Source: Owenia fusiformis (taxonomy: Eukaryota; Annelida; Polychaeta; Sabellida; Oweniidae). From it: a DNA stretch of 64,000 nucleotides. The notes below the pieces were generated by a model. That model made no database searches. It had not been told where the DNA came from and was given only the letters and a program-made list of their open reading frames with translations. The stretch covers positions 9,666,030 to 9,730,029 of the forward strand of contig CAIIXF020000009.1 in NCBI GenBank assembly GCA_903813345.2. The letters run 5' to 3'. A program made the translations under genes and the position numbers. Shown piece by piece: positions 131-20,192 of the stretch; positions within the stretch are counted from its first letter, which is position 1, and every line of letters begins with the position of its first letter.

Positions 131-813
131 CTTGATTTTCTACACTTGAATTCAGCGCATCATTTCTTATCAATTCATCTTCTATATGAAAAAGAATAAT
201 TAAAACATATGATTTATAATTGAATACTAGTACATCGTAATTTACAAGGTTCTGGTTGCTATACAACCTTGGAAGTCAAAGATGAGTGAAAATGCCAATT
301 CCGTTTAATTTTACAATTGATTTCGCGTCGTTCCTTTGTAAATACTATTTATTATTGATTCATTGGTTGACCACGTTTCATTTATTTAAGTAAGTCCTGA
401 AAATGGCACGTGTAAAGTGACAGTCAGAACAGGGTTATGAGTCATACCTGATAATGGATTTCTGCAATCTGCTTTGTAGAGGATCGTTTCATCAATAAAA
501 AATCCATTCATGGTAGAAGTCAACGTAAAATCAAAGGTAAGATAGAACACACTAATCTTACTAGTACTTCCATCGTGAACATTGACAGATCGTGTCATCC
601 ATGTAGACGACGATGATGCATTTCCTTCTGGTACTCCCATAAAAAATTGGTCCAGTAGTATTTTTGATTTGGCAGTAGACTTCCAGATTTTGACTTGTCC
701 ATTGTACAATATATACGAAAACTTCAAATATACTGCAACGTTCGTTGTAATCTTTGGACTCTTAAACGATTCTTTCATATCAACAACTTGGATGGCATTT
801 CCAATGAAGGATC
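131..813 (-). CDS. Exons for second-half MAM-like domain and short linker exon
   Basis: Exon 448-813 (122 codons, phase 1 at both ends) starts after a TTTCAG acceptor and ends at GTATGA. It reads like the second half of a MAM domain: a GSFIGNA start, a paired-strand stretch with [14 protein letters not shown], a TWM block, and a FFIDET motif in the place of the usual aiDdi near the end, followed by a Cys. Exon 131-181 is only 51 bp (17 residues, [10 protein letters not shown]...), also phase 1-1, with a GTAAGA donor. It matches no domain I recognise. The gene continues leftwards out of the window. Confidence 0.7.
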
Positions 814-3800
814 CTGAAATATTTTATATGATATCCTATCATATCCTATTATATCATATCATACTTATTGCTTAAGTATATCATACATAGAGGATATCCT
901 ATGATTTATGAGTGATATGATTTTTATCCACGAATGGATATGATATCTGCACGAGCGAGCGTAGCGAGAGAGTGCAGATATCAATATCCATGAGTTTTCA
1001 CTTTGTTTGAGATGAAACAATAGAGATAGTCTAGTGTAATCTTGTCATAAATGGCATGAAGAAATTAAAAAAGTACAAAACTGGTTTATATTAGCATTGT
1101 CAGTTTGAGATGAAGTATATAAAGTTGGCATGAAGAAAAAAGTACAAAACTGGTTTCTATAGTATTTTCAGTTTGACATATAATCTTCGCATATCATATG
1201 ACATGAAGAAAAATGTACCAACCTGGTTTGTCTATTGCAGTTATTTTGAAATCAACAGTGTCAATGTTCCGTTCGTCGTGGTTTTCCTTCCATGTTAGAG
1301 CCATCAGGAGTTTGTTGACAGATGACACTGTTGGCTCCATATATCCGTTGTAACAGGACGATTTCAAAACTGAATCAGTATTATTTGATCCATCATGCAG
1401 TGCAATTTGAACATATCGATCATCGCAGCTATACTCTGGTGAAGACTCATCAGAAAACACTACAACTACAACCTGAAAAATGGTACACGTATAGTTTTAA
1501 GAAAAATTCATCAGTTTGACTTCATCGTGTACTGTTGGACTTAAAAGAAGACAGTATCTCGCTTTCTCAGCATTGACTCGCATCGTTTCTCCTTTATTTG
1601 AAATGTTCATAACAAAAGGTTTACTATTTTCCCCATAAAATCTGGTGACCTTAAATAACAACTAGACCTCACAAATAAGTATAATAATATTGATTTCATG
1701 ACATAGTGTTATATACCAAATTGTTTAAAAATGGATTACCTTTAAAATGATATATAAATCAATGTATCATGTTTGAACATAGCTATTTCTATTCTGATTT
1801 GAAATTGGGTATTGGTTTTTTGGCCCACCCTGTATGTCCTTTACGATTCCAAACAAAAGAATTAAATTACCAAAAAGATACATGGTTCAACAAAAAAAGA
1901 AAACCTATTCGATTAACGCATGCAATCATCTTTTTACTCAGGCACAACAAATTCCACGAGACGAGAATTTTAGGGTAAAACTAACTTGCACTTGAAATCT
2001 AAATATTGGAAATATGAATCCTAAAACGACAATTTAATTAATTCACCTGGTCATCACGTTCAGTTTCGAATATCATATCACAGTGGCAAGTCTTATTTCT
2101 GCATCTACTTTTTACATCAGTCGTTTCCCCCTTTGATATTATTTTGGTTTTGTTGGTTGAAGAACAGATATCAATAGCCTCATAAGCATCTAAATCATAA
2201 ATATAAGCGTTAAAGATATTAACATCTCAATAATATTTATACTTAATAATATTTAATTATAATATCAGAAAGATTATGTTAATATGATGTATAAGATAAA
2301 TGAAGTGAAATGTATACTCACCTATCGCTTCACTATATTCAATAACAAATCCCTCAAAAGTAGCCGTGTAATCAGAAGTAAACCGGATTTCAACGATATT
2401 TGAAGGTGATATAAACTCTTCTGGTGGTGATCTGTCGCAATATGGTCCAAATAACTTAGTACTACTACCATCATATATCGATATAGAGTCATAATCGCAG
2501 TTAGGGTGATATTCGATCAAAAACGTCAGGAAGTGCAATTTGATATGCTGTAATAATAAACACTTCATTGTACAGGTTGTACATGTACCAGTTAAAGCTA
2601 GAGTCAAAAAATGAGTAGTAGATGAATGCAACTGGGTGTTAAAAACGTTACGTATACAAGTATAAAGGGTGGACCATGGTCGCTCGTGGCTCCCCTGATG
2701 TCAACCTAAGCCACTTAATCCACATGAAAAAAAGTTTTTTCAGTCGAATGGTGTCATATTGTTAGGAATGATCTATCTTTCAAATGATTTTAGGAAAATA
2801 TAGGGGCATGGCTGAACATATGTCACATGATATTCATCTTTGAACTGGTGCATTGTTTTTTGGCCCACCCTGTATATATATGAAATAAAATGAAACAATA
2901 GACGTAGAATAATGTTACAATTAACTATACTTATTACAGCCTTTGCTACTTAGATCGCCGAAATACTGAAGCACTAATTCAAGGAACTAGAAGAGACTAA
3001 AGCAAAAACTTTACATCTCCTGTAATTTTCTGCAAGTTGACCTTCAAAGCGAAGAATTATTCTGAGTAATGTATTTTTAGACAAGGGATATGATAACCAT
3101 GGCAAAATGTCACCATATAGTTGCTCACAATATAATAAGTTCAAAAATTGTAAATTTGAGGCAAATTGAAAAAAGAACCCTTTTTACCTTTTTCACCTTG
3201 AGAAGGTCATTGAAAGTAAAGTCTTAAATCTAAAGGTTAGATTCACATTTCTGAGAACTTGTAGATGATTTCGAAAAATGACCCTGAGAAAGTCAAATTT
3301 CAAATCTAAAGTCAGATTTGACCCTTTGAGAACTTGTAGATGATTTTGAAAAAAGGTCAATATGAATGAAGTTGTGGACCTTTTGGACCAATAGGTCATT
3401 GAAGGTCAAATCTCAAATTTAAAGTTAGATTTTCAGTATTTGTTAACTAATTGAGAGTTTACAGAATTTGCTAGAGACGTCGCGTCGAACGCCAAGCGCC
3501 ATTACAGACGCCAACCGACGACATCACAGAAATAGAGGACATTACAATGTCACCTCCAGTAAAAAGGTTCATTGAATAGTGAGATTAGAGTGTGACTCCC
3601 TTTGCAATATTATACAGTAATATATTAATATAGTCATACATGATCAGGGTCGGTTGTGATTCTCCACGTACATTTCTGGTCATTGGGATAATTGCCATGC
3701 CCATAATTTGGAGAATATAGAAGCCCTGATGTACTTTCTTTATCCAGCACCAGTTCAACTACTTCAGTCCCGCAGCTGGTTATATCTGCTTTGGATACTC

Positions 3801-6800
3801 TAGTTCCTTAATAAATCAGAAGGATGAAATAATTTACTTTGTTACAAAGGCAATGCACAAATCGAATATTAATGTTTCTGTATTTTTAAAATAGTGTCAA
3901 GTGGTGTAAATAGTGTAATTCCACTAAATAATACATACCTGCTTGGTACTTTAGGAATGAAATGTGTGATGAAAGTTGCCTATAGCCTGTCTCATGCGTG
4001 ACTATACACCTATGAGCAACCGTTAACGCTAAATGGTGTAATTCCACCGAATAATACATACCTGCTTGGTACTCAGGAATGAAATGTGTGAGGAAAGTTG
4101 CCTATAGCCTATCTCGTGCGTGACTATACACCTATAAGCAACCGTTAACGCTAAATAGTGCAATTCCACTAAATAATACATACCTGCTTGGTACTCAGGA
4201 ATGAAATGTGTGATGAAAGTTGCCTATAGCCTATCTCGAGCGTGACTATACTTTTTTTTTATTTTTTTTATTTTTATTTTTCTTATATATATATATTTAT
4301 TATCTTTAATTTTCATTTACAATCTACAATACATCACAATGCGCACACATAAGCACAACTTTGGGTACTTTGAGAAGTCAAAAGAGCTACCTTTTGATAG
4401 CGGAACTATAAAAATACAATAATTGGAACATGTACAACATGAACATAGCATACAGGTACATAGGAATATAAAAATACAATACGGTAATAAAATACAAGGT
4501 ACAGTACAGTTTTTTGTTAAAACGGTATCTCTAATTTGTTAAGAATAGAATTCCATTTTCTAATAAAGAGTGGCCTAGTCTGATTTTCTGTTGATATTCT
4601 TAATTCGTTTTTTATTTTGTTTCTTATGATATTTTTAAACACATTTATGTTGATAATCGAGTTACCCACTTTAGAGGAGTGAATGTAATTTTTTGCGTAG
4701 AGTAGGCAATAGTTTAGTGCAGATTTGTTGTCATTTTCTGGATTATTAGTGATGCCTAGTAGTATTTCCCTATTGTTTAAATGAATGTTATTGAAAAAAA
4801 TTGACATGTCATTCCAGAAGTTCACTACTGTTGGGCATTCTATATAAAAATGGAGAGTATCGTCAATTTGGCCAAGATTACATTTATCGCATAAGTTTGA
4901 TGCAGATATTTTTTATTAAACAGAAATAGATTGCATGGCGTGAGGTTTAATAGGAGTTTATATTGAAAGCTTTGTATTTTGGCCTCACGGGCTACTTCGA
5001 AGGGTAATCTAAAAATTGATTTCCATTCCTGTTCGGAAAGGTTGTATTTTTCGTTGAAGTATCGTTTCCCTGTAGGATCTTTAAAATGGTCTTTTATGAT
5101 ATACCAGTAAATTTCTTTTGTGGTGATGCGTTTTATATTTATCATAGATTTTTTTACTTGAATGTCGTTTGCTCCTAGAATTTTAATATTTTCCTTTTCA
5201 TTTCGCAAAAGCGTTTTCCAATTTCTCGGGATTGCATGAATTATGCCATAATATGTTACGAAAGGCGTAGTGATATTGTACTTTTGAATGAAATCTTGGT
5301 ATCCTAGTAGTTCTCCATTTTCTTTTATAAGGTTTTTAATTTGTTTTACACCTTGGGTTTTCCAGTTAATGTAATTTACTGTTTTATTATTTATTGTTAA
5401 CTATTTATTGTTCCAAATGGTTTCATTTGTTATTGTAGTTTTATCGTAGGGTTCATCATTGTGAATTTTGCTCCAGGTTTTCATAATCGAGAGATAAAAA
5501 GGTGGAAAATTATTAAAGGCGTCATTTTTAAATTTTGCTTGAAATATTTCTTTTGAGTCAAGATTAGGCAATAATTTGTAAAAGAAAAGTTTCCATTTAG
5601 CCCCATTGTTATTATATAATCGCTTCACCCATTGTATTTGTAACGCTTTTATTTGTGAATCGAAATGGATGGTTTTGATTCCTCCATTTTCTATTTCTCC
5701 TATTGTCGTATAATTGCTGATCAGGGGTGGTTTACCGTTCCACATAAAAGAATTAATAAGGTTTTGCACTTGCTCGATGATATTGATTGGAACGAGAATA
5801 GTTGATGCAAGGTATGTTAGTTTTGATATTGCAAGGGCTTTGATTATTGTATTTTTTCCAATCAGGCTTAAATTTCTCCAGTTCCAGATTTTAAAAAGGT
5901 TCTCTATTGCTTTAACTTTTGAAGAAAAATTTAGGTCATTTCTTTCATTCAAATCGTGACTAAACCATATTCCTAACGCGTTAAACTTATCATTGTTTAT
6001 TTGAATTTTGGAGGTTTGACAATGCGGTTGTATAAAAGGGGGGTCATTCTTATAAGCTCCTAACCATCGTCCTTCGGTTTTATTTAGATTTGGCTTCAAC
6101 CCAGAGATTTCTGAAAAGGATTTTAAAGAGTTAAGTACTAGTTCGGTTGAGTCTATGGACTTAAGGAACAGTGTAGTATCGTCGGCAAACATGGATATTT
6201 TTATCTCGATATTATTAACTTTTATACCTTTTATATTATCATTTTGTCGGATTGACGATGCTAAGATTTCGGCGACAATAATAAAAAGGTAAGCCGATAG
6301 GGGGCAGCCTTGGCGTACGCCTCTAGTTGGAAAAAACATGTCAGATTGATACCCATTATTTGAAGTGCAAGATTGTATATTTTTGTAAAAAGTTTTAACC
6401 CATTTTATTAAAGTTTCTCCAAAATTGAAAAGGGTAAGGGCTTTTTCGATGCATTTCCAATTAACGGAGTCGAAAGCCTTTTCAAAATCAATTTGAAGAA
6501 GGATACCGGAAATATTCTCATTGGATGTATAGTTTATCATATCTTCGATTAATCGTATGTTTTCCCCTATATATCTTCCCTCAATATAAGATGTTTGGTC
6601 AAAATTTCGTGACTATACACCTATGAGCAACCGTTAACACTAAATAGTGTAATTCCACTGAATAATATATACTTAATTGCTTGGTACTCAGGAATGAAAT
6701 GTGTGATGAAAGTTGCTTAGCCTGTCTCTTGTGTGACAATATGCCTATGAGCAACAGTTAACGTTAAATAGTGTAACTCCACTAAATAATACATACCTGC

Positions 6801-9800
6801 TTGGTACTCAGGTATGAAATGTGTGATGAAAGTTGCCTATAGCCTGTCTCGTCTGTGACTATACACCTATGAGCAACAGTTAACGCTAAATAGTGCAATT
6901 CCACTAAATAATACATACCTGCTTGGTACTCAGGAATGAAATGTGTGATGAAAGTTGCCTACCTGTCTCGTGTGTGACTATACACCTATGAGCAACCATG
7001 TAATTCCACTAAATAATACATACCTGCTTGGTACACAGGAATGAATTGTGTAATGAAAGTTGCCTACCTGTCTCGTCTGTGACTATACACCTATGAGCAA
7101 CCGTTTACGCTAAATAGTTGAAGTCCACTAAACATTATATACCTGCTTGGTACTCAGGAATGAAATGTGTTGTGAAAGTGGCATCATTTTTTGGCCAAAT
7201 TTTAGGATTCACAAAGCCAGGTGGAGAGAGGGCTCTGCCATACATCCAGTTTCCCGGTGATGGAACGTGCCATCCACACCTGAATGGTGTTTCAAAGCTG
7301 CAGGTTATCGACGGCGCTGTATATAAAAATACATTGAATTGGTATTTGATAATTGTACATGAAGGTGTCATCGAAAACCATCAATCATTTTAATATACTC
7401 TAGTTTTCAATTGCTGTTGAATTTATTTTCATCACCCCTTTAACATATAAAGTATTAATCAGAACCACTTCATATCCAAATATGTCAAAAGAAAAAAGAC
7501 AAAAAAATAACCTCACCACAGGCTGGAGCGGATTCATCACTAAAGTCTCCACAATCATCATTGCCATCACACAACATATTGTTAGGAATGCATCTCCCAT
7601 TGTTACAATGGAATCCAGAGCAATCTGTAACTAAGATAAGAATTCATCCATGAATCAGTACTCATACAAATAAGTCTACCTATTGTACGATTTTTATATT
7701 AAGTTTCATTTATTGTAATTTATTCAAAATACAGTAACAAGTTGTGTACTTTGTAGTATAAATTGCTGACTAAATTGTTTTTAAATCCCCAAATTTATGA
7801 ACTTGACTTGGTAAGAGGAAAGGATATGAATTTAACTATTATATCTGCCATGTAATACAAATATTTCTCGACAAATACAGGTCCTTGAGAAGAGCAATAT
7901 TATCTGCATAATTTTTTACAATACTCAACATATAATATACTTACCTCCAGGACATACACCACCAACGACCCGTACATTGTCAATGGCGACATCTATTTCG
8001 AATATATTCCTCCTCTCGATCATTAAATTGTACGAAGCTTCGTTGGATGGAAGTTGAAACTGAAAACGTTTCCACTCGTGATTTTCACATCGGTTTCCCA
8101 GCAAATGAGCTAGCTGTATCATATACCCCGACGAGGAAAATCGAATGTAAAATTTGAGGAGGACTACTCGTTTGTCACATCCACCAGTTTCCCTGAGAAA
8201 ATATGTTTTGTAATCCAGATGAAGGCAATTCTGTCTTGCATACACACGTTTGCTAACTCCAGGTGATATTAGATAACTTCTTATTACGCCATATGTCTTT
8301 ATCATTTTATCTGATGCAGATGTGACTCCCATGAATTGACCTAAAGTATGAACATTTTTTTAAGTTATCCATCTTACTACTACTGTTAATAGTTAACACT
8401 GATGTGATAGAATTATATTTTTCAAGGTAGAGTTGTAAAGTAATGCATAGTTAACTCTGATACTTATTATTTTCAATAAATGTATCTGACCTAAGATGGC
8501 CTCTTATGGTGAAATATATTGCAATAGATACAAATAAATTGCAAAATTATATAAAAATGTAGGTACAAGTTTACCTTTTGCCCCGACAGCCGTGATGTTA
8601 CTTATAGTAAGAATCTCTTCCGGTGGAGTTGTAATCATTGTTGATCCAGTGGCAATATTATTGGTTGTTGCTAGTGTAGATGTTGCCATGGGATCCGTAA
8701 TCGTTGATCCAGTGGCGCCAGTATTGGTTGTAGCTTGTGTAGATGTTGCCATGGGATCCGTTATCGTTGATCCAGTGGCGCCAGTATTGGTTGTTGCTTG
8801 TGTAGATGTTGCCATGGGATCCGTTATCGTTGATCCAGTGGCGCCAGTATTGGTTGTAGCTTGTGTAGATGTTGCCATGGGATCCGTTATCGTTGATCCA
8901 GTGGCGCCAGTATTGGTTGTAGCTTGTGTAGATGTTGCCATGGGATCCGTTATCGTTGATCCAGTGGCGCCAGTATCGGTTGTTGCTAGTGTAGATGTTG
9001 CCACGGGATCCGTTATCGTTGATCCAGTGGCGCCAGTATTGGTTGTTGCTTGTGTAGATGTTGCCATGGGATCCGTTATCGTTGATCCAGTGGCGCCAGT
9101 ATTGGTTGTTGCTTGTGTAGATGTTGCCATGGGATCCGTTATCGTTGATCCAGTGGCGCCAGTATTGGCTGTTGCTTGTATAGATGTTGCCATGGGATCC
9201 GTTATCGTTGATCCAGTGGCGCCAGTATTAGTTGTTTCTGGGAAAGGGGGTGTAAAGAAAACGTCTACAATCACGGAATAACTAGTTTGATCTTCAGGAG
9301 GTGGATAACCGCCGGAGGAACCTGCATTTTCATAACTTGGATCCGTAGGATATGAGCTGCAACACTCCCCATACGATTCTCCACTAGCTCCATAAGGTGA
9401 CGTTGTTGAAGCGTAAGGCGACGAGTAATATGACGAATCATCGTAATCATACGACACACATTCTAAACCATACTTATTGGATTCACTACCGATGACATTA
9501 CACATTATGTCATCTTTGAATATTTCTGAAAGGTAGAGATAGTGTGGAAAACGAAAAGAGCAATGTAATATAAACCAGAGACATATAAAAACATTTATGT
9601 ATAAACGCTATGTATATGTATACAAACGCCATACATAAGTTTAAGGTTAATTAGGTTAAGTACAAGCAAGTTAATTTATCAAGTTCCCAATGCTGGGGCT
9701 TGAATTTATTCGTTTACAGTATCAATTTGATGGTATTTTCCTAGCCATGACTTTCCACTTTCATCAGGAGAAATTCGCAATACAATTTAAAAAGCATGCT

Positions 9801-12800
9801 CTTTTAGTCAGTGATTGGCTTTTTTCTTCAGTTTCAACAGATTGTTTTGACTTAGATTAAAATAATGATAAATCTCCCCAAAACATTGTGTATTGTTCTA
9901 GACATATTGCGTTCATATTTGACATATTTGGTTGTTCTGTTGGTTGTTCTGATGGTTGTGCTTTTGATTTCCTCGATACATCGGTGATACTGTGCTTATG
10001 CTTTGGTCTCAAAATATATCTAAAGTATATATGATGTTTTATGAGTAAATATATTGGGACAATACTGACTGTCCAGAAGAGAAATATGTAGCAGGGTACA
10101 CAAAACCAGAAAAAGCACATACCATTTTCTTTATCTTCGTCCATAAGCATCCAAGTATATAGTTCTGAAACCATTATAAATAGTATATTCACAGATAAGC
10201 ATGATATCATTTATTATTGTGTTATTCTTTGTTTTACAGTAAATAAATGGTAAGTTTGATCCTTATTTATTATCCTTATATATCCCTATTTCCCAGCTTC
10301 GATCAAAGTCATTCAAATGTATACTTGTATGGCCATTTATTACATATATTTATATACATAATTTGTAATTTTCTAATAAAAATGAGGATCATTATTTTAT
10401 GAGTTCATTTATGAAATATATGGGCACATGAAACCAAGAATTAGATTTAAAGAATCTTTGAAAGCAATAATTAACTCGCGGATCGCTAAGTCATAACTTA
10501 CTAAGTTCGGTGCCTAAATCCTTGAATGTATTTTTATCATTGCCTTCAAATAACAATAAATCAATATACTGTACATAGTATTTACACTGGACACCTTATA
10601 TAATATTAATACTTCTGTGTAGATTCAAGACTCTGGTATTATATTAAATAACTAAAGTTCATTGACCTCAGAACCATTACTAACTTTAGTTATTTAATAT
10701 AAATACTGAGTTAATATTATCAATATAATTTTATTGTACACCGTAGCTCATAAATATGGAATACATTTTGCATTTTGAGGTCGGACCATAAGCATAAAAT
10801 TTACAACCCCTCCCCCCTTAAAAGATAGCTTTGTCTACTCTGTGTCTACTTTTGGCTTACCTCAGCGCTCATAACTTACTAACCCAGTACCCACATAAAA
10901 ATTCCACGTTACGAATGACGGTGTACGTTGTCTAAAATAACACATACCTGACTGTTTTGGTTCTATGGAAAATCCACACAGATTATCATAATTGAATTCA
11001 CAATCTTCCCCTGCAAGAACATTTCCAATCTCAAACAAAACAAGCAAACATACAAACATTAAAAGACATTGTTTGAAAAAAACTTGATAAAATGAAACAT
11101 AGAGTCGTTAATTCAATCAAAACAGGTATGATTTTTAAGATATACCATTATTGACAACTTGGTTTTCTTCTTGCAACTTACTGAAGTTGATAGGTATGAA
11201 TAAATATTTTATGAAATTGAAATTGCTTAAAGTCCCCGTCTGAAGTTTGAAACTATTTTTTTATCATTCATTTACTGTTTGTCATGACTTTAAAAGTTAT
11301 TTTAGAGATTTTTGAGCATCTCATTTCTCAAATATTCAAATTTCCAGCAATTTTTCAAAAAGTTGAAATTTTTTAATCACCAAATATTTCTTAATGCATT
11401 TCAAAAAAGACTATCTTTTTAACACCAATACAAAGATTGAACACACACACTATTTCAATAATATAATGCCATATTTAATGGGCCACTTCAAGTTTTAGCA
11501 TATCAAAAATATTTTGCAACATTAGTGATGTCACTAAGGCGGCAAAAACTTTTTGAAAAAGATTGAATTTTTTTTTTCGATGTCAATCTTTTCTAAATAT
11601 GCTAGACTTCAATAATAAACCAATGTTGATTGTCTACGGTTAAAAGGAAGAAGAATATATTATGTTTTAGGTATCATTGTACCATTGGTTTCTATGAAAA
11701 CTAAAATTTTGAAATGCATTTTTCTCGGAACCATTTTCATGCACTGATGAGTTCATTTCTCGCTTATTTATGAACCGATTTTCTTAATTTTTCGGCAAAA
11801 AAACATAGAGGATGAATGCTATGCATTGGTATGGATTGTGGCTAATTAAAAGGTATTTGGTAAAAGGTAAAGGTACCTCTAAAAGTAAATTTTAAATAAA
11901 TTCACAAATTTTGGAACAAAAAGTCTATCAAAAACCACTTTTTGAAATCTAAACAAAACGTTTCACATATCACACTTTGATTACATTGGGTAACACTACA
12001 ATATAAGCCAAAGTGGTTTAAAACTTATATGGGGACTTTAAATGATATCAACTTACATGGGACCCTTTAATGAAGCCAAAGAAGCAAAACTCGTTTATTT
12101 CAAGAGATAACCAATTAAAATAATTAATTAAGAGACTCGGAATAGAAGATTGATTCTTTAGAACTAAGGGCTCGAGTGGGTGCTCGAGACATATCATTCC
12201 GTTCCTTCCTTCTTCACCCTATCAACCGCAGGGTTCCAGACTTCATACATTGGTATATCAAGATGAGAAAAGGCAGTAGAGCGGATGATGTCTGGTACCC
12301 CACCTAAGGAAGATGAGAAAATAGGGACTTGTTTTGCTATACATACAGCATTGGTTGATTTCATCACTTCCGTCGTCACAATTAGACATTCCATTACAAA
12401 CCAAAGACTCGGGAATACAGTCGCCATTGTCGCATTCAAATTCGTCTTTTCCGCAAACTAAACAAATAAAGAAACAGTATGGACTGATCTACTTTTTGTG
12501 TAGAAATTATTCAAAACGAGACTCTTATCATACACTCCAAAGAATTTTACAGAACAAACTATACAATCAATTATTTATCAAATATATAGGATTCATTTGT
12601 ACTGATGCCCTATTGAGGCCAAACGTAACGTACATCTAACAATGAAATATTACCATTACAGTAAAAATAGTAATAAAGTAAAGAAAATAAAACTGCATCT
12701 TTCAGATTACATAAATATACATATTTTGTACAGTTCCCTTGGCTTATAACGTAAATTATCGTATGATCGGTCAGTTCTTGTGCTGTACCATTCTGTATTG

Positions 12801-15800
12801 CTACTGAGATTGTCCCCGTTGATCATCTCCGTCGCAATACAGAAAATATTGGTACGGAGGGGACAATCTCAGTAGCAATACAGAGGATCACGTGATAAAA
12901 ACGTTATTGAATGACTTGAAGTGCAATATAGGATATATTCTGTCTCGATATTCTGTATTGGCACTCGACTTCGTCTCGTTCCAATACAAAATTTCTCGCG
13001 CAGAATATATCCTGTATTGCACTTCAAATCATTCAATAACTTGTAGTATCGCAACATTGAAGATGTTCAACAATCTTGTTATTTTTGTATTGACATCTTA
13101 ATGCGTTTAAACTGAAATGGAAAAAAATTGTCAAACGAAATGCTAATTATCATTGTTGGTGAAAGGTAAGGAGGAGGTTAAACTATATGTCATTTCAAAG
13201 AAAATGAAATACATGTACGCGAAATTGTAACATAATGGGCTCTCAATTTGATGGACTCTCAATTTGGTAGCTTGACCTCTCCGATGCCTAACACAACCCA
13301 TGTTATAAAGATATAACACTTACCTCTACATCGAAAGAATATGTCTTCTGTGGAGCTTTCAGCCAATTCAAAATCATCCGTTTCAATACTTGTGATTGAG
13401 CAACTCGCCTGGGCTTTGCTGTAGAAAATTGACTTGCATTTCAACTTCGTATCTTTCACACACAGGTATTTACAAACCTCCAGTGTGAGTCCAATGAATG
13501 TTGCGACCTCGTGTTTCTCTAGTTCGACAAAATTGCTGATACTGACAGTTTTGTTTGGTAGTAATGTAAACGGGTTCTGCACGGTGCATGGTCGCACCTC
13601 TGAGTATCCTTTGAACATTTGAACAAAATATGTGAAACAACATGTAAAGCCATACACAATTGTGTACAATGAAGAATGTAGGTTGATTCGTATAATCTAA
13701 ATTAGAAGCTTAAATAGTTACACCTATTGCTAAATGAAAACAAGATTATGTGGCGAAAGCCAAAACACTGTCTAAATAAGACTAAAATTGGGGGAAAATC
13801 AAAATTTCCATGATTTCAACCATTCGACCTGGAATTACTAGAAAAAATAGGAAATATGTAAGGTATTATGTAATATCACATTTCGACGGATCAAATATAT
13901 ATAATTTCATTTTAGTTTAGCAATACTCCATAAAACAACTTTTATCTTCTTGTATCTCATTTATTTTAATCAATATTAATTATTGATTGAATACATTGTA
14001 CAGGATGTCAAAAAACAACGGCACCCCCCTCTACATCAAAAGGTACTTAATGTTACATGGTGTGTCATATCTCATTTTAAAGACAATTTAATTCTGGAGT
14101 TACTTGAGAAATATCAGCTTTATATCATATAATTTTACAGATTTACAGCTGATTCTTAGTAGTTGGTATGACAACCAGTTGCTGCTCAAACAGCAGCTTA
14201 TCTGGATGGATATGATTTCAATAAAAATTCAGATAAAGATGTAGCTTTGGATAACCCTCTTAGCACTTTCCTCAAATTCTTCAGAATTACATCCTTAATG
14301 TATATTTTTTCAAGAGGCTCTTTTTCCATCAATTCCTATACTCTGTTTTTCAGAACTGTGCCCATATATTCAGTGTAGTTGAAATCTGGGCTAATTCTTT
14401 CATGATCCACTTACTTAAGATTTGACCTTTAACAAGTAACAGAGCAGCAAACAAAGTACCCGAAGTAGCAAACTTTGAAACAATGTAGCTTTTTTAATAT
14501 AAAGTTTTATTAAATGAAATTTGATGAGTAACTCCAGAATTAAATTGTCTTTCAAATGAGGTATGAATATGACACGATATGTAACATTAAGGACTTTTTG
14601 CTGTAGAGGGGGGGTGTCGTTGTTTTTTGACACCCTGTATATTTTTGTAATTGTAGAACGTGTCTAATAATGCTAAAAGCACAGCCACTTAAGCATGTAT
14701 TACTGTATTGTATTCTTTGTACAAATGAATAACTTAATAAAAAAAAGTTTAGCATCTATAAAACCATTAAAACTGAAAAATGATCCATATAGACCCTGGA
14801 AAGCATATATTGAAATAGCTTGTACGGCTTAATGCATCCAGCAGATTACAATTCAGGACACACTAAATATTTCATTAAAACGTTAAAAATACTACAATTT
14901 CCATCATTCTTGAAAATATCCAATACACACGTTCCTAAACAGTATGTCGATCCTTGACATTAGACCCATACTAAACATACTAACGTAAAAGGTCTACTGG
15001 GTCATGATTAAAAGTCAATCTTACCTGCTTGTATGGCTTTAAACCTACTGGATATCTCATCAAACATTCCCGTCTTATACACCTCACTACCCCTATGTAC
15101 ATAAAGACATGATATTAACACGAAAATAGTGACTGACAATTTTCCTATATATCCGTCTTTGCACTAATTATACTACCAGATTGACAGTCTGTTGCATTGG
15201 AAAGACACATGGGGGTACAGCTGGTGTTCAGTGAACCATAATAAGAAATGGAATAAAACGAGACTTAGTATGTTGGCAACCATGATGGTTACGGGACTTG
15301 CAGCAGGGTAGGCTAAAAATGGAACATTTTCCGATTCATTTTAACTTCTTTTTTAGTCATGTAAAATATAACATTTAATACTTAAGGAAATTGAAGAACA
15401 ATTCATTGTCAACAGTTTGTGTAAATATGAATACACAAGCTCAATATTCAATTACTCAATGCAATAAGGGTTTCATGTCCTCCACCCACCTGAACAACTA
15501 GTCTCAGCTGTATTTGACAGTCAAACATGGCTTAAATGATATGTTTAGAGACTAGACATATTTTGCCAGTTTTGAAAAAGCTGAGGTCAGTTATCCTAAA
15601 TTATATATTCCAAGGAAGACATGTCTAGCTTCTCCTAGCGATAAATACATATGTTTTAATCGATGGAAATTGTGTTGAGAACATTAAAGGGCACATACTG
15701 AGTGAAAGATACTCTATTTTTAGCAGTGATGTCTCAAGAAGAGACAATTTTGAATTTTTTCATGACATGCGCAGTTTACAGATCATGACCATGACAAGCC

Positions 15801-18800
15801 AAAAATAATTATACATACATATTTTTATCTTTGACATTTTCACAAATAATCATTTTACCATTTTTTGAATTTTTGTGGATTAAACTGCAATAATAAAGAA
15901 AATTGAGTAAATAGAAAAATGTTCCAATTTTTATTGGCTCACTCTGTAAGAAGTATCATACATGAGATGAAGAAAACACGATCAAGAAAATTGTGATTTG
16001 GGCCGTTCTTGCTAACATTATAGGAGATCTGATTATTAGTCNNNNNNNNNNNNNNNNNNNNNNNCATTATAGGCGCTTCTATGGTATCATAATTATAAAC
16101 AACGTTTTTCGAGCTGTCTCTGATCAATAAGAACAAATGCAAAAATATCCTGTTTAATAATACACGTATAAAACAGGCATTCAATTTTCATATTTCAGCA
16201 TTTACTCACCTTAAGAAGTTGTGATTGCAAATGGTGACTGCTGGAAATTTTAAACTTGACGCTGATTCCACTTGGACGTTCACAATAGTGTTATACTCGA
16301 AATAAGTAAACAACCTGTTGTAGACGATATTACAGAAAAAGCACGTGCTCGTTAGTACAACCGCTATCCACAATATGCTGAAACAAATACATGTAGTATT
16401 TTAAAAACCCGGATGTTACCTTCAATGAAGGGGTGAGAGACTTGTCATACGTACCCATGTGCGGGTATACAGTAATTACTAATTAGCGATACATGGTAAT
16501 ATGTCACCTACCAAAAATGTATAATATTTGGTTTCTTGTCGTATGAAAAGTTTTTTCGCAATCTTGTGAATGTCAATAGCCTAGCCCAAAAATCAGGATT
16601 CATTATTGTCAGAAAGAAAAAGTAGTTGTCAAACTTATAGAGGGCAGTATACTTTAATTTTTTTCAAAATCAGAAACAGTGATCACTAACCCCTCACTGA
16701 CCTCAACTCCCAAACACTTTATAGATATTAAACATGTACCGTCTGACAAGAAAAACAGTCGGCTGGGGTATGTATCGAACACCATGGAAGGTTGTGTTCT
16801 GGGTAAAATCATAGAGCAAGCTTCCCCAAGTTTCCGAGTCTGCTTCCGGCTCAACTTTTGTTTCGTCATAGCCTGGTGGTAGTGGTCTACTAGGCTTGTT
16901 GAAATAACCATATCCAAGGGCATCTGAAGATAAGTTACGCTTCAAAGGGGCTCCAACTAGAAATATCAATATACTATTTTGTTAATACTCGTTTACTTGT
17001 GGTTGAGAAGGTACCATTTATTTATTTTTTATTCATTTATTTATTTCTCATATTACCCCTTATGGGTTATATACATGTAGAGTATACAAAAGAGTATTTC
17101 ATATTTTCATACATGTTTTGTACTAGAACTAAAAAGTTCCCTTTTATCCCACATATTTTTATTAGTTTTAGCCACAGTCCATTGTGTCCGATTCGATCAA
17201 AAGATGAGGAATAATCAAGTAAACCACAATACAATTCTCTCTTTTAGTGTAAAAATACATCAATCATTTGAGCAATGAGCACAATAATGTCATCAACCAT
17301 GCTCTGAAAATTACAGAAATCAGTTTACGATGAGAGTGTGCACGTTGGTCGCACTTGACATATTTAATATTTCCTAGTATTTCCTTCATCTCCAGGATTA
17401 GCGATCAAAGAAGAGACACGTTAACGTAAATACAAATTACTAATTAGACTATGTAAAGAACGTATGGGACATTTTCTGAAACAAACAATGAGTAGAACAT
17501 GTGATATAAAATCACAACCTGATTACAATTCAATGGTTTTGCGGATTGAAAATGACATGCATTATATTCGTTTAAGAGAACGTGTACGTGAACGTGTATA
17601 ATTGTGATGCATGGTGCCGTTTTGGTTATATTCTGTTTGAGAATTTTTGTATTTGAACGAGACGAAGTCGAGTGCCAATACAGAATATCGAGACAGAATA
17701 TATCCTGTTTTGCACTTCAAATCATTCAATGACGTTTTTATCGTGTGATCCTCTGTATTGCTACTGAGATTGTCCCCTCCGCACCAATATTTTCTGTATT
17801 GCGACGGAGATGATCAACGGAGACAACCTCAGTAGCAATACAGATTGGTACAGCACAAGAACTGACCAATCAGAGGGCTTAATTTTACAGATCATACGAT
17901 AATATATAGTACCGTAAATATGTCACCGTAGACCAAAATAATACCGTATGATACCGTGGATACTGTACAACACCACAATCGTCCGGCACCACACTCTTAA
18001 TGTACCTTACGGTGCCGGATTGGGGGTGTATGGATTAATAGTTCTCCCCTTCCGAGTATATTGCCCAAATAACGGTGTTATAAAACGGCTGTGATTAGAT
18101 CTCCGGAAAAGGAATTGAGAAATGTTATAAAATTTCACGTTCGCTCATAACTTCCCTTGAAAACGTACAGTTAAACCTCCCTTTTGTCTTCATTAAAACG
18201 TTACGTGAACCCAAATAAGTCGCTTTATAAGTCACACTCTTTGCATGTTTCATGGTAATTTACGATTTATTAAATTATAAAATCTATTTAGCCCCACCCC
18301 ACTCTCCTAAGATTCGCCCCATTCACAAGGAAGACATTAAATAGATAATTGCTTGCCTCGAATAGACTCGAATGAAATCACATTAGCGAAAAGGTGCTAA
18401 CAATACTTTCAACATACAAAATCGGTTTATTTAAGCTACAACTTAATGTAATACATTAGTGCAGTTTAACGTTACATTGTATATACACGTACGCGTTAAA
18501 TTATTTATCGTAGTAAAACTTTTAAAGGGATTTTTGATGATAGTCTATTTCATTAACTATGACGTTTGACCTCACGACTCTTGGGGATTATTTTCATATC
18601 ATAATACCCATCGTTATAATTGCTACCCGTATTATTCTTGTTTCATAAACACAATCCAATCCCAAACACTAATAACACAACACATTTGCTTAATTGAGGT
18701 AAAACGTGCTTTTGGGATCGGTCTGAGTGTTATCGCGAACGCCCAGTAGTTACAAAACAACCATCAAGTTGTATTAATTGAAATACATTTTTTATATATT

Positions 18801-20192
18801 AATGGTCATTTGTATTTCCATATTGACTCTAATTTAGGTACTAAGTACTTTCACTTTTCTTAATTGATTGGACATTTTGATATATACAAATTCGTATACA
18901 CCCAATGTTTATACACCTGTAATTGGCATTTTAGAACAAAATGGGATTTCTTGTTAGGAAGATAGAGGCTTGGGTATTATAAGATTCCACAGTAAAAACT
19001 GTGCATTACGAAATGACAACTCCGATTCGAATAATAAAAGTAATCGAAGAATTTAGCATATTTTGATCCAATTTACGTTTGGCTCCATGTGGTGGGTCAA
19101 TATCCGAACGAAATGAATTTCATCGAATCTTTGCCAAAATATCGCAATCAAAAACATGATATTTCAAATAAACAACAGGACAATCCAAATGTAATGATAT
19201 TAGCATGTTAATATTCTAAAACTGGAGAAAAGTGTACAACAAATATTAGGAAACAGAATCTCATCATTTCGTATATTGTCCTTGTGCGATATGCCATAGT
19301 TCGGGGTATTGGGGATTTGCTTTCCTTAACAGTGGTTGCAAGTGCTTTACGTTGCATTTATAAAAATGGGAAATAAAAATGCTAATTTAAAAATATATAA
19401 TAATGATGAAACTTGTTTTGAATAAAGGTGTGTCGTATTGATCAAATCTCGAGACACCCCAAAGTATGCGCCCTGGGCCTATACAATACCATACAATGGG
19501 ATGTATAACGACGGAATGTGTCATAGTATATATGAAAAAATAGCATTAACGTTAATAATCATTATTGTATGGTAAATGAAGTAATTAAGTATTGTTGTCG
19601 TGAGCAGGTACTATACCTTTGTTTCATTTTTATTTACTTATTTGGAGACTACGCTTTTACAACGGCATAGAAAATTGGTGCGTCCATTTAAGATAGCCTT
19701 AAACATTTAGTATTATTTTATAGGGCATTGCATTTCCAGCACACGTTCACGAGACTTGACAACATTTTCAGTCAAAAGCTGGAGTATTATTGTGTAAATG
19801 TTTATTCACTTTGCAAATCAATCTGAAAATTGTCTTCATAATGTTTTCCTCTAAAAATAATTTGAGTAACTGAACTTTTTTAATGAGGACTTTTTCTCCT
19901 ATTTATACTCTATACTGCCATACCCCCACCCCGATCATACATCTTTTACATTACCTTGTGGCGCACCATCGTCACCTTGTTCCTCTGATATAGCAGAACG
20001 GGCATACCAAGGTTCCGAATACTCATTCTCGTAGTTTGGTCTTTGCATTTGTTCGAACTCTTTACCAAGAAACACTTTAGTGAGATCCTTGTACCAAGTT
20101 GGATCGCCATTCGTGTCATCTACACCTTCATTTCTGAATTCCTTTTCCACAAAAGCAACTGAGTTTTTCCGTTTTGTCTCTCCCTCAAACAT
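131..20192 (-). CDS. DEG/ENaC-family channel with mosaic PAN-LDLa-MAM-mucin-CUB ectodomain (3' end outside window)
   Basis: Eighteen coding exons with GT-AG borders and matching phases: 19955-20192, 16740-16956, 16210-16377, 15025-15092, 13324-13608, 12347-12457, 10948-11010, 10123-10164, 8575-9525, 7945-8340, 7517-7630, 7143-7316, 3640-3806, 2322-2547, 2047-2189, 1223-1472, 448-813, 131-181. They encode about 1343 residues. Order: cytosolic N-terminus (1-150), HG gating motif, TM1, start of channel ectodomain (to 230), PAN (231-325), LDLa (326-362), MAM first half (363-397), Ser/Thr/Tyr-rich repeat exon (398-714), MAM second half (715-846), LDLa (847-884), second MAM first half (885-942), CUB (943-1073), divergent CUB (1074-1204), MAM second half (1205-1326). 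DEG/ENaC subunits form trimeric sodium channels at the plasma membrane; the modules are extracellular adhesion or ligand-binding types. The ATG has A at -3 and an in-frame TGA upstream. Palm/thumb remainder and TM2 are not in the window. Single-transcript continuity is inferred from phases and needs cDNA. Confidence 0.8.
820..1000. repeat. Palindromic MITE-like hairpin
   Basis: The sequence GATATCTGCACGAGCG near 940 is answered by the inverted copy AGTGCAGATATCAATATCC about 20 bases later, giving a hairpin around a GAGCGAGCGTAGCGAG loop. Flanking AT-rich ATCCTATCATATC repeats lie to its left. It sits in the intron between CUB2 and the MAM second half. The superfamily is not determinable. Confidence 0.45.
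1223..2189 (-). CDS. Two exons encoding divergent second CUB domain
   Basis: Exons 2047-2189 and 1223-1472 join in phase 0 and encode 131 residues, exactly the same length as the preceding CUB pair. The first exon is Cys-rich ([15 protein letters not shown]) and lacks the usual SPNYP motif. The second has the better CUB signature: [16 protein letters not shown], then SSCYNG, then [12 protein letters not shown]. The identical intron position and length suggest duplication of the neighbouring CUB followed by divergence. The donor at the left end (GTTGGT) is weak. Confidence 0.65.
2322..3806 (-). CDS. Two exons encoding first CUB domain
   Basis: Exon 3640-3806 holds the N-terminal half: [19 protein letters not shown], then KCTWRI. 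Exon 2322-2547 continues in phase 0 with [32 protein letters not shown] and a final GFVIEY. The four canonical Cys of a CUB domain are present. CUB domains are extracellular beta-sandwich binding modules. The split at DPDH|HIKL uses donor GTATGA and acceptor TTACAG. Here the CUB pair is placed between the two halves of a MAM domain. Confidence 0.85.
3098..3560. repeat. Long copy of a GGCATTAAC/TGTCACC interspersed repeat family
   Basis: It starts with ATGGCAAAATGTCACCATA and ends near ACATTACAATGTCACCTCC. In between are repeated AAGGTCAAATCTCAAATC and ACTTGTAGATGATTTTGAAA blocks, and a GACGCCAACCGACG-rich 3' part. A closely related long copy lies at 31908-32260, and shorter copies occur at 25525, 33705, 43474 and 62023. 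It sits in the intron between CUB1 and the MAM first half. Confidence 0.5.
3890..7142. repeat. Tandem array (unit about 122 bp) built from an exon end plus its splice donor
   Basis: Seven units contain ACCTGCTTGGTACTCAGG at about 3938, 4060, 4181, 6676, 6796, 6917 and 7022. The eighth, at 7141, is the genuine end of exon 7143-7316. On the minus strand each unit has roughly the last 40 bases of that exon, the donor (GTATGTATT) and about 80 bases of intron. The array is interrupted by a LINE (4252-6607). The copies therefore form a ladder of decoy donor sites immediately downstream of the real one. Confidence 0.85.
4252..6607 (-). mobile_element. 5'-truncated L1/Tx1-like LINE with reverse transcriptase, decayed
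   Basis: The minus-strand reading frame from about 6606 to 5401 encodes reverse transcriptase. It has [15 protein letters not shown] (first catalytic Asp), [13 protein letters not shown], and FADDTTLFL (catalytic FADD). A TAG at 5401-5403 interrupts the frame, which then continues open to about 4900, where a shift near an A-run follows. The other frame carries a C-terminal CDKC...H...C zinc-finger-like motif at about 4825-4900 and runs to 4517. The 3' end faces left with a T-rich tail on the plus strand (4252 onward). An 11-bp target duplication, CGTGACTATAC, flanks it at 4241-4251 and 6608-6618. The 5' end is cut off inside the RT domain. The L1/Tx1 assignment rests on motif style only. Confidence 0.9.
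7143..7316 (-). CDS. Exon encoding first half of second MAM domain
   Basis: This 58-codon exon (phase 1-1) has an ATATACAG acceptor and a GTATAT donor. It begins [16 protein letters not shown], the typical MAM opening (C-x-FE ... C-GW), followed by a Trp-containing stretch. It ends FIPEYQAG. The matching second half of a MAM domain is not in the next exon: two CUB domains come between. Its last 40 bases were copied into the adjacent tandem array. Confidence 0.75.
7517..7630 (-). CDS. Exon encoding LDL-receptor class A module (second)
   Basis: One phase 1-1 exon encodes a full LDLa module. It has six Cys in the pattern [32 protein letters not shown], with the calcium-binding acidic cluster ([12 protein letters not shown]). 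The donor is GTGAGG. Two acceptors are possible: TTAG (exon end 7630, preferred for its pyrimidine tract) or ACAG (7624). Both keep the frame. Confidence 0.92.
7945..8340 (-). CDS. Exon encoding second half of first MAM domain
   Basis: This 132-codon exon (phase 1-1, acceptor CTTTAG, donor GTAAGT) reads [51 protein letters not shown] and finally [13 protein letters not shown]. This is the ordered strand pattern of the MAM second half with the conserved Asp-Asn-Val end. It starts at the same point in the fold as exon 448-813, so both MAM domains in this protein are cut at the same place. Confidence 0.8.
8575..9525 (-). CDS. Large exon with Tyr/Ser-rich acidic region and nine 21-residue mucin-like repeats
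   Basis: The 951-bp exon is phase 1 at both ends (acceptor TTTCAG, donor GTAAAC). Its first part is Cys-containing ([21 protein letters not shown]) and then Ser/Tyr/Gly/Pro-rich. From about 9240 to 8640 it is a 63-bp tandem repeat: nine full units and a partial tenth of a 21-residue unit containing [12 protein letters not shown] and MATST. The units are almost identical in DNA. Thr/Ser density suggests an O-glycosylated stalk. The exon is placed between the two halves of a MAM domain. The long antisense frame across it is only a product of the repeat length being a multiple of three. Confidence 0.85.
8640..9240. repeat. 63-bp coding minisatellite
   Basis: The unit contains GTTGATCCAGTGGCGCCAGT and GTTGCCATGGGATCC on the plus strand. 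About 9.5 copies differ at only a few positions each, implying recent expansion or homogenisation. Length 63 bp keeps the frame. Confidence 0.95.
10123..11010 (-). CDS. Two small exons encoding first half of first MAM domain
   Basis: Exon 10948-11010 (63 bp; acceptor TTGCAG, donor GTATGT) reads [19 protein letters not shown], the classic MAM opening. Exon 10123-10164 (42 bp; acceptor TTTCAG, donor GTATGT) adds [14 protein letters not shown] with the conserved Trp. Both are phase 1-1. If the intron after 10123 is retained, the frame stays open to a stop at 9857 and encodes a strongly hydrophobic segment followed by a basic tail. Confidence 0.75.
10637..10705. repeat. Short perfect hairpin
   Basis: TATTATATTAAATAACTAAA (10637 onward) is mirrored by TTTAGTTATTTAATATAAAT (about 10685-10704) with a 22-base loop. 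It lies within an intron of the channel gene. Confidence 0.6.
12347..12457 (-). CDS. Exon encoding LDL-receptor class A module (first)
   Basis: The 111-bp phase 1-1 exon (acceptor TTTAG, donor GTATGT) encodes a complete LDLa: [33 protein letters not shown], then NQC. All six Cys and the acidic calcium ligands are present. It follows the PAN exon directly, and the split codon makes Val before the first Cys. Confidence 0.93.
12755..13060. repeat. Compound MITE with two adjacent long hairpins (left copy)
   Basis: Hairpin one: CTGTATTGCTACTGAGATTG at 12791 is mirrored by CAATCTCAGTAGCAATACAG ending at about 12882. Hairpin two: TTATTGAATGACTTGAAGTG at about 12903 is mirrored by CACTTCAAATCATTCAATAA ending at about 13040. 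The same composite appears in inverted orientation at 17645-17910. Confidence 0.8.
13324..13608 (-). CDS. Exon encoding PAN/apple-like domain
   Basis: This 95-codon exon (phase 1-1, donor GTAAGT) follows the channel's proximal ectodomain. Cys spacing fits a PAN/apple fold: RPC near the start, LEVCKYLC in the helix (C-x3-C), [15 protein letters not shown] in the strand pair, and FFRC at the end. PAN domains bind protein or carbohydrate ligands. The acceptor (TTCAAAG) has a weak pyrimidine tract, but phase fits both neighbours. Confidence 0.8.
14001..14637. mobile_element. Mariner/Tc1-type MITE with TA target duplication
   Basis: The terminal inverted repeats begin CAGGATGTCAAAAAACAACG on the left and CAGGGTGTCAAAAAACAACG at the right end (read inward). 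They extend about 100 bp, and TA flanks each end (13999-14000 and 14638-14639). The 637-bp length and lack of a frame indicate a non-autonomous copy inside an intron of the channel gene. Confidence 0.88.
15025..20192 (-). CDS. DEG/ENaC core exons: cytosolic N-terminus, HG motif, TM1, proximal ectodomain
   Basis: Exons 19955-20192, 16740-16956, 16210-16377 and 15025-15092. Family marks: [14 protein letters not shown] (the His-Gly gating motif before TM1), FLVRR joined across the intron to [14 protein letters not shown] (TM1), then [17 protein letters not shown], the FPAVTICN signature that begins the DEG/ENaC ectodomain. All junction phases agree (1, 2, 2, 1). The first exon is acidic and low in recognisable motifs. 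After exon 15025-15092 the frame enters the PAN domain, at the point where family members normally have the variable finger region. Confidence 0.92.
16042..16064. other. Assembly gap (23 N)
   Basis: A run of N lies in the intron between the TM1 exon and exon 15025-15092. Both flanks end in CATTATAG-like sequence (CATTATAGGAGATC and CATTATAGGCGCTTC), so the gap may hide a short repeat. Confidence 1.
17645..17910. repeat. Inverted copy of the double-hairpin MITE
   Basis: This is the reverse complement of much of 12755-13060, including GAACGAGACGAAGTCGAGTG, GAGATTGTCCCC and GACCAATCAGAG at the outer edge. It is 4.6 kb from its partner, with the TM1 exons between them. Confidence 0.75.
17911..19954. 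other. Remainder of intron 1 of the channel gene; no feature seen
   Basis: AT-rich sequence with no coding-like frame, no RNA gene and no clear repeat boundary that I could find by eye. Confidence 0.5.

Follow-up and report, generated by a model that had tools for sequence, protein, structure and literature searches.

A DEG/ENaC channel gene of Owenia fusiformis carrying a cassette of adhesion modules in the finger and a long insert in the thumb, a candidate arm-gated member of the ASIC clade

A gene on the minus strand of a 64,000-nucleotide stretch of the Owenia fusiformis genome (G000:C9:9666030-9730029; hereafter the window) appears to specify a 2,132-residue DEG/ENaC subunit of the ASIC clade in which a complete channel is interrupted by two insertions, a cassette of adhesion-type modules in the finger and a block of ∼450 residues in the thumb. 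The whole explanation, namely that a single gene encodes this subunit and that the cassette forms an arm through which the pore would be gated, is given a probability of about 0.6. The gene runs from window position 20192 to position -8741 and extends beyond the left window edge; negative coordinates denote positions to the left of window position 1, where 30 kb were included in the analysis (coordinates in this larger sequence, L001, equal the window coordinate + 10000). Its exons were placed by hand from the sequence, the splice sites, homology and profile evidence. The resulting model comprises 28 exons (6,399 nt, 2,132 codons) that read in a single frame with a sole, terminal stop, and AG/GT splice sites are found at all 28. 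It can be stated with great confidence that the exons from TM1 through the cassette to TM2 belong to one gene, a strong claim that still falls short of proof. The preliminary description of the window had joined an HG motif, TM1 and FPAVTICN in phase to PAN, two LDLa, MAM and CUB modules with no intervening stop, and the 28 exons do form one such frame.

All exons lie on the minus strand, and their phases are given as in/out. E1 (19955-20192; phase 0/1) contains the start codon (ATG at 20192) and the cytoplasmic N-terminus, and its GT donor is in phase with E2 (16740-16956; 1/2), which bears the HG motif (TFHGVRYI) also present in the paralogues on C5, C1 and C12. TM1 and FPAVTICN are encoded by E3 (16210-16377; 2/2), and the start of the finger by E5 (15025-15092; 2/1). 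A candidate exon E4 (16119-16065, running into 23 Ns) was dropped; it is not needed because E3 joins E5 directly in phase, both here and in paralogue C5. The run of 23 Ns itself (window 16042-16064) lies within an intron of the gene, beside an exon-like open frame. After the cassette, the finger resumes in E20 (-262 to -363; 1/1) and continues in E21 (-1828 to -1918; 1/2), which includes TGHKASDMI. E22 (-2249 to -2352; 2/1) encodes CVYDGESC ... DFGMCYTF, and E23 (-3268 to -3350; 1/0) and E24 (-4017 to -4115; 0/0) the palm. The Cys-rich thumb begins in E25 (-5430 to -5586; 0/1), continues in E26 (-5735 to -5791; 1/1) and ends in E27 (-5991 to -7422; 1/2), which also carries the long insert. E28 (-8048 to -8139; 2/1) supplies the palm strand preceding TM2, and E29 (-8584 to -8741) supplies TM2 with a GAS filter, the C-terminus and the TGA stop codon.

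The preliminary description had pointed to the sequence left of position 1 as the place to seek a Cys-rich thumb and a TM2 with a GxS filter, and had held that the lack of a downstream TM2 would speak against its reading. Both elements lie there. The minus-strand frames left of the window contain DFGMCYTF, a Cys-rich thumb with KPWGSC ... CLTKNVVDLCGC and CQEDCNEQC, then a long Cys-poor stretch, followed by NFLELDIYYSKLAYQNIQQ and DIGGFMGLLLGASVLTVFEI; the thumb (E25-E27) and the TM2 with its GAS filter (E29) are in frame with the rest of the gene. The objection fails because TM2 with GAS is located left of the window. An automatic Viterbi gene finder, for which 19 other, single-exon channel genes of the genome served as training set, was also tried and its output rejected: the HG, TM1 and palm exons were missing from its best chain, which assigned E5 a different frame and finished within E27. 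The coding model derived from this set was weak, the score of the TM1 exon being below 0.

DEG/ENaC subunits share an HG motif before TM1 and an FPxVTxCN motif after it, and the gene has TFHG in E2 and FPAVTICN in E3. When both insertions were taken out, the remaining core of 586 residues matched the Pfam ASC family (PF00858) over model positions 1-454 of 455 in one stretch, with 301.1 bits (2.1e-89); as encoded, the two channel halves matched ASC at 9e-17 (the TM1 half, E1-E3) and 1e-61 (the TM2 half). By comparison, the strongest ASC match among those listed for the 498-Mb genome reached 288.1 bits. That list holds at least 95 matches (92 of 212 candidates were scored, and matching was done exon by exon), most of them single open frames longer than 500 residues. 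The closest PDB relatives of the TM2 half were ASIC1 chains (1.2e-40). In the alignment with ASIC1, a 790-residue query aligned in two blocks, 52-233 (from the end of the finger to the thumb) and 697-771 (ahead of and within TM2), while the long Cys-poor stretch at query positions 262-708 was mostly unaligned, the second block beginning a few residues inside it. The ectodomain is thus not limited to palm, beta-ball, finger, thumb and knuckle, the finger being longer by 1,111 residues and the thumb by ∼450; DEG/ENaC membership nonetheless stands, because a module-free ectodomain is typical of the family, not defining. From these sequence features, the gene product is very likely a working cation-channel subunit.

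The finger cassette (E6-E19) amounts to 1,111 residues with 41 Cys, located between the finger start in E5 and the later finger and palm exons, which bears out the earlier proposal that a DEG/ENaC finger had received more than 1100 residues of adhesion-type modules. The modules run from PAN and LDLa through a first MAM, which the mucin exon interrupts, to a second LDLa and a second MAM, interrupted in turn by a CUB and a CUB-like domain. Phase-1 introns flank the cassette, and its exons are 1/1 except for the phase-0 intron within each CUB or CUB-like pair. E6 (13324-13608; 1/1) encodes the PAN domain; scanned alone it matched PAN_1 at 5.3e-5 (23.4 bits against a cut-off of 21.4; 1.3e-6 in the paralogue), and PAN_1 was not listed by Pfam when E6 was scanned within a longer piece. 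LDLa 1 is in E7 (12347-12457; 1/1) and matched at 1.4e-11. MAM 1 is assembled from E8 (10948-11010; 1/1), which holds its N-terminal piece, E9 (10123-10164; 1/1), a 42-nt exon placed by phase and splice sites and the least certain of all, and E11 (7945-8340; 1/1), which holds the C-terminal piece. Within it lies the Thr/Ser-rich mucin exon E10 (8575-9525; 1/1), made of 9.5 copies of a 63-bp repeat; MAM 1 scored 5.6e-8 without most of this exon and 4.8e-8 without all of it (E8, E9 and E11 joined). LDLa 2 (6.8e-10) is in E12 (1/1); the preliminary description had an exon at 7517-7630, where the LDLa exon is indeed found, its boundary being better set at 7517-7624. E13 (7143-7316; 1/1) and E18 (448-813; 1/1) encode the N- and C-terminal pieces of MAM 2, which when joined covered model positions 1-158 of 158 at 5.7e-4, with 20.2 bits and hence below the cut-off of 26.4; the halves of the counterpart in paralogue C5, similarly joined, gave 1.1e-15. 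Between them, E14 (3640-3806; 1/0) and E15 (2322-2547; 0/1) form a CUB domain (1.5e-26). E16 (2047-2189; 1/0) and E17 (1223-1472; 0/1) are read as the two halves of a second CUB-like domain by their exon pattern only, which is that of E14/E15: Pfam yielded no CUB or other credible match for them, and a match to PilZN1 (0.16-0.17) was taken as chance. The MAM 2 match appears only with E13 and E18 joined, as would be expected if the CUB pair interrupted a MAM domain. When the MAM 2/CUB part was compared with the PDB, cubilin, procollagen C-endopeptidase enhancer 1 and neuropilins were among the best matches, their best stretches lying over the first CUB. The linker E19 (131-181; 1/1) is the final exon of the cassette.

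The intron between E13 and E14 contains two further elements. A retrotransposon reverse-transcriptase open frame of 403 aa lies at window 5401-6612 on the minus strand, in the same orientation as the channel (RVT_1, 7e-26 for a 182-residue piece). At 3907-4251 and 6609-7102, tandem repeats of ∼122 bp hold seven more copies of the last ∼40 nt of E13; the GT donor is kept in six of the seven copies. The array flanks the retrotransposon on both sides and could give rise to pseudo-exons or alternative donors.

The cassette might be optional, alternative splicing producing both a compact channel, in which E5 is joined to E20, and a long one whose cassette would be a regulated antenna or decoy. Such a skip is allowed by the gene model, E5 (out 1) and E20 (in 1) being in phase once E6-E19 are removed, and the core freed of the cassette and the thumb insert is the one that scored 301 bits for ASC. 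The phase argument is not specific, however, because any class 1-1 insertion permits a skip of this kind, and we regard this alternative as unlikely, if worth keeping in mind.

The second insertion, in E27, adjoins the finger and is 447 residues long, 2 of them Cys and 8 Pro. It is probably helical, as judged from composition and hydrophobic periodicity only: its hydrophobic moment is higher at 100 degrees (0.89) than at 170 degrees (0.67), the corresponding values for the cassette being 0.54 and 0.62. Candidate relatives were not believed (best Pfam match 0.12; best PDB match 0.0011, for an 83-residue stretch, to DNMT1). A long thumb insert is present in six genes of the genome. The inserts with their flanks are 29% (C5), 21% (C1) and 15% (C12) identical to that of the C9 gene. 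The C5 insert is similar to that of C9 along its length (2.5e-30); those of C1 and C12 resemble the C9 insert only over about their first 75-135 residues, and their presumed homology past that point is judged by position and length.

Paralogue C5 (G000:C5:14563956-14591052, plus strand) is diverged and located on another chromosome. On one strand it shows, in order, TM1, finger start, PAN, LDLa, MAM, LDLa, MAM start, CUB, MAM end, palm, thumb and thumb insert. When 26 exons of the C9 gene were searched against it (E9 and E19 being too short), 16 had a match at E ≤0.02, and 14 of the 16 best matches were collinear, a value reached in none of 200,000 shuffles (the most was 11); none of the 26 had a match at this threshold on the opposite strand. 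The two non-collinear matches were a weak one of E21 and one LDLa, the latter misfit arising because both LDLa exons prefer one C5 LDLa exon. E18 is outside the 16, having scored 0.017 in a smaller search and more weakly in the larger. The best-scoring C5 splice sites had the expected phase on both sides in 11 of 15 homologous exons; for E25 this was true of the acceptor only, and for E2, E11 and E15 it was not. C5 additionally has a kringle (7.2e-21) and a further extra exon read as WSC-like, which had no Pfam match; kringle, WSC and CUB make up the domain set named for Kremen1 (PMC5014086). No TM2 was found in C5 with three TM2 sequences and motifs in 48 kb, up to C5:14609000, ∼18 kb beyond the last exon found.

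A different cassette occupies the same place in paralogue C1 (44920765-44942925), where four Laminin_G_3-like domains (1e-11, 1.1e-5, 3.2e-13 and 5.4e-12, the second just below the cut-off) and Thr-rich stretches lie between TM1 and palm. By best sites, three of the four laminin-G exons are 1/1, the third lacking a good donor in that phase. At C12 (G000:C12:26226001-26273200) three channel genes of the ASIC clade lie in tandem, each with more than 500 residues inserted in the thumb; across the insert the other two are 72 and 70% identical to the first. The one C12 gene read for a cassette shows none, its TM1 exon being 1.6 kb from its palm exon. Six genes thus carry the long thumb insert and three of these a cassette, with one of the three C12 genes read for it. 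Beyond what the preliminary description contained, the analysis therefore adds the thumb insertion of ∼450 residues, a clade shared with ASICs, a subfamily of six genes and a sister gene whose cassette is of another kind.

A tree of 25 rows, which includes four of the six insert-bearing genes and 19 other genes of the genome, grouped C9 with C5 (96/96), these with C1 (92/96), and all three with C12 and two ASIC rows (100/100). Both ASIC rows fill less than half of the kept columns, and long branches were flagged elsewhere in the tree. By this 100/100 grouping the C9 channel is placed with the ASIC clade, inside or beside the ASICs, and C12 may likewise fall either way relative to them. A separate ASIC-like gene with an ordinary short finger (G000:C8:12402001-12406500, L033) groups with human ASIC1 (99/96).

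H73, D78, E411, E416 and K211 have been described as proton-gating residues of spiralian ASICs (PMC9949801). The residues taken from the ASIC1 alignment as equivalents of rat ASIC1a E411/E416, in a numbering map of our own, are S/Q in C9, S/T in C5, A/Q in C1 and R/E in C12; the K211 equivalent falls in a poorly aligned stretch. For H73 and D78, the 18-residue stretch after TM1 that we take to be the candidate region contains no His or Asp. The C9 channel is read from its sequence as probably not chiefly proton-gated, and the change at the E411/E416 equivalents means that gating or placement through the finger arms, not by protons, would be expected. It might still be argued that the channel remains mainly proton-gated and that its arms position it at matrix or synapse, as an anchor and not as a gate. 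Its membership of the ASIC clade fits this view; the four pairs of residues at E411/E416 and the want of a His for H73 in the presumed stretch go against it, and we consider it doubtful.

Under the arm-gated reading, exon shuffling would have brought the cassette into a phase-1 intron. The channel would be assembled from three subunits and expose three long arms; a matrix protein, a glycan or a soluble ligand that bound to an arm, or a pull on it, would move finger and thumb and thereby gate the pore, protons not being the main stimulus. The protein would then probably function as a finger-coupled, ligand- or matrix-gated cation channel; taken by itself, gating or tethering through the cassette is given an even chance. 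There is precedent for such coupling. The finger of FaNaC1 binds FMRFamide, and its closing on the ligand pulls the thumb; a corner of the finger has also been named as the proposed matrix-tether site in other family members (PMC11026163). Tethering to the extracellular matrix is, furthermore, a discussed gating model for degenerins (PMC10148893).

With ASICs, those of spiralians included (PMC9949801), the C9 channel has in common the best PDB match, the tree clade, the GAS filter and the order of finger, palm and thumb; it differs from them in the 1,111 residues added to the finger, the ∼450 added to the thumb, and the S and Q at the E411/E416 equivalents. In FaNaC the finger is a ligand sensor that moves the thumb, as is proposed here, but the ligand pocket is formed by the channel's own finger helices and neighbouring loops, and the excerpted account mentions no inserted modules (PMC11026163). 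Gating via the extracellular matrix has been proposed for degenerins such as MEC-4, as it is here for the C9 arm; the tether of a MEC-4-type channel would be made of separate matrix proteins, whereas the C9 arm would belong to the subunit (PMC10148893). EGAS-1 to -4 of C. elegans are DEG/ENaC subunits that owe their name to an additional EGF part (EGF + ASC), and those tested in oocytes gave no currents different from controls (PMC10424705). In contrast, no EGF family was among the Pfam matches of the C9 cassette pieces scanned, all of them outside the mucin repeats. No published account of a DEG/ENaC subunit with such an architecture was found in the open-licence literature of PubMed Central, a scope outside which preprints and most subscription journals fall. 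Polycystin-1-like proteins also tie a very large adhesive ectodomain to cation channel function, but their membrane part is unrelated and their modules are different.

Two other explanations were weighed against the arm-gated channel. A former mosaic channel might be degenerating, and now be a pseudogene or a non-conducting adhesion protein. The reverse-transcriptase insertion and the seven partial copies of the E13 end in the E13-E14 intron would agree with decay, as would the TM2 that was not found within 18 kb in C5; an array of 2,132 codons with no internal stop, AG/GT sites, an intact HG motif, a Cys-rich thumb and a GAS filter would not, and we judge decay improbable. Even less credible is that an intron of a normal channel gene houses a separately spliced MAM/CUB/LDLa adhesion gene of the same orientation, for while the phase-1 introns that enclose the cassette mean that an E5-E20 transcript would stay open, and gene predictions often contain erroneous fusions (PMC12964723, PMC3927609), the acceptor of the first cassette exon is in the phase left by E5, the interval from TM1 to the palm has the same module order in C5 and a different set of modules in C1, and a modest test found no signal-peptide-like start exon with a phase-1 donor in the intron before the cassette in either C9 or C5 (such exons are rare by chance, 0 of 60 random control pieces having one). 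The reading of the preliminary description, a single gene rather than two, has thus gained from frame continuity, from the start-exon scan, modest as it is, and from the module order in the paralogue.

Downstream of the channel gene, the region from -11207 to -28081 (minus strand; L001-L003) contains serial similar open frames that encode pieces of Cys-rich, lectin-like ectodomains with Thr-rich stretches. Separate frames in the region contain a single hydrophobic stretch, and there are also long frames in which Tyr motifs recur; one of the long frames holds eight copies of a unit like ETPYDTTLEAVN. The two ectodomain frames scanned had no credible Pfam match.

It has long been asked how the effect of a ligand or a force on the ectodomain of a DEG/ENaC channel reaches the pore, and the tethers that have been proposed to link mechanosensitive degenerins to the matrix, being separate proteins, are difficult to test. 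The arms read in the subfamily are PAN-LDLa-MAM-CUB in two genes, one of them with a kringle in addition, and four laminin-G-like domains in another; none was found in the C12 gene read. Similar and different cassettes at the same site suggest channels with built-in sensor or tether arms. Tentatively, and with slightly less than even odds, we propose that the finger intron of an ASIC-like channel has been a docking site for exon-shuffled cassettes, giving rise to a family of receptor-channel hybrids that have the pore and a large thumb block in common and whose exchangeable arms would let different matrix or soluble ligands gate a sodium channel directly, with no separate tether protein. We conjecture that length filters or splits in gene prediction could hide such genes in surveys. 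If the explanation is true, it would suggest that the finger tolerates an insertion of a thousand residues, which would be useful for engineering ligand-gated sodium channels, and a self-armed subunit with sister genes that have another arm, or none found, would constitute a natural swap experiment in which one kind of pore is joined to different sensors.
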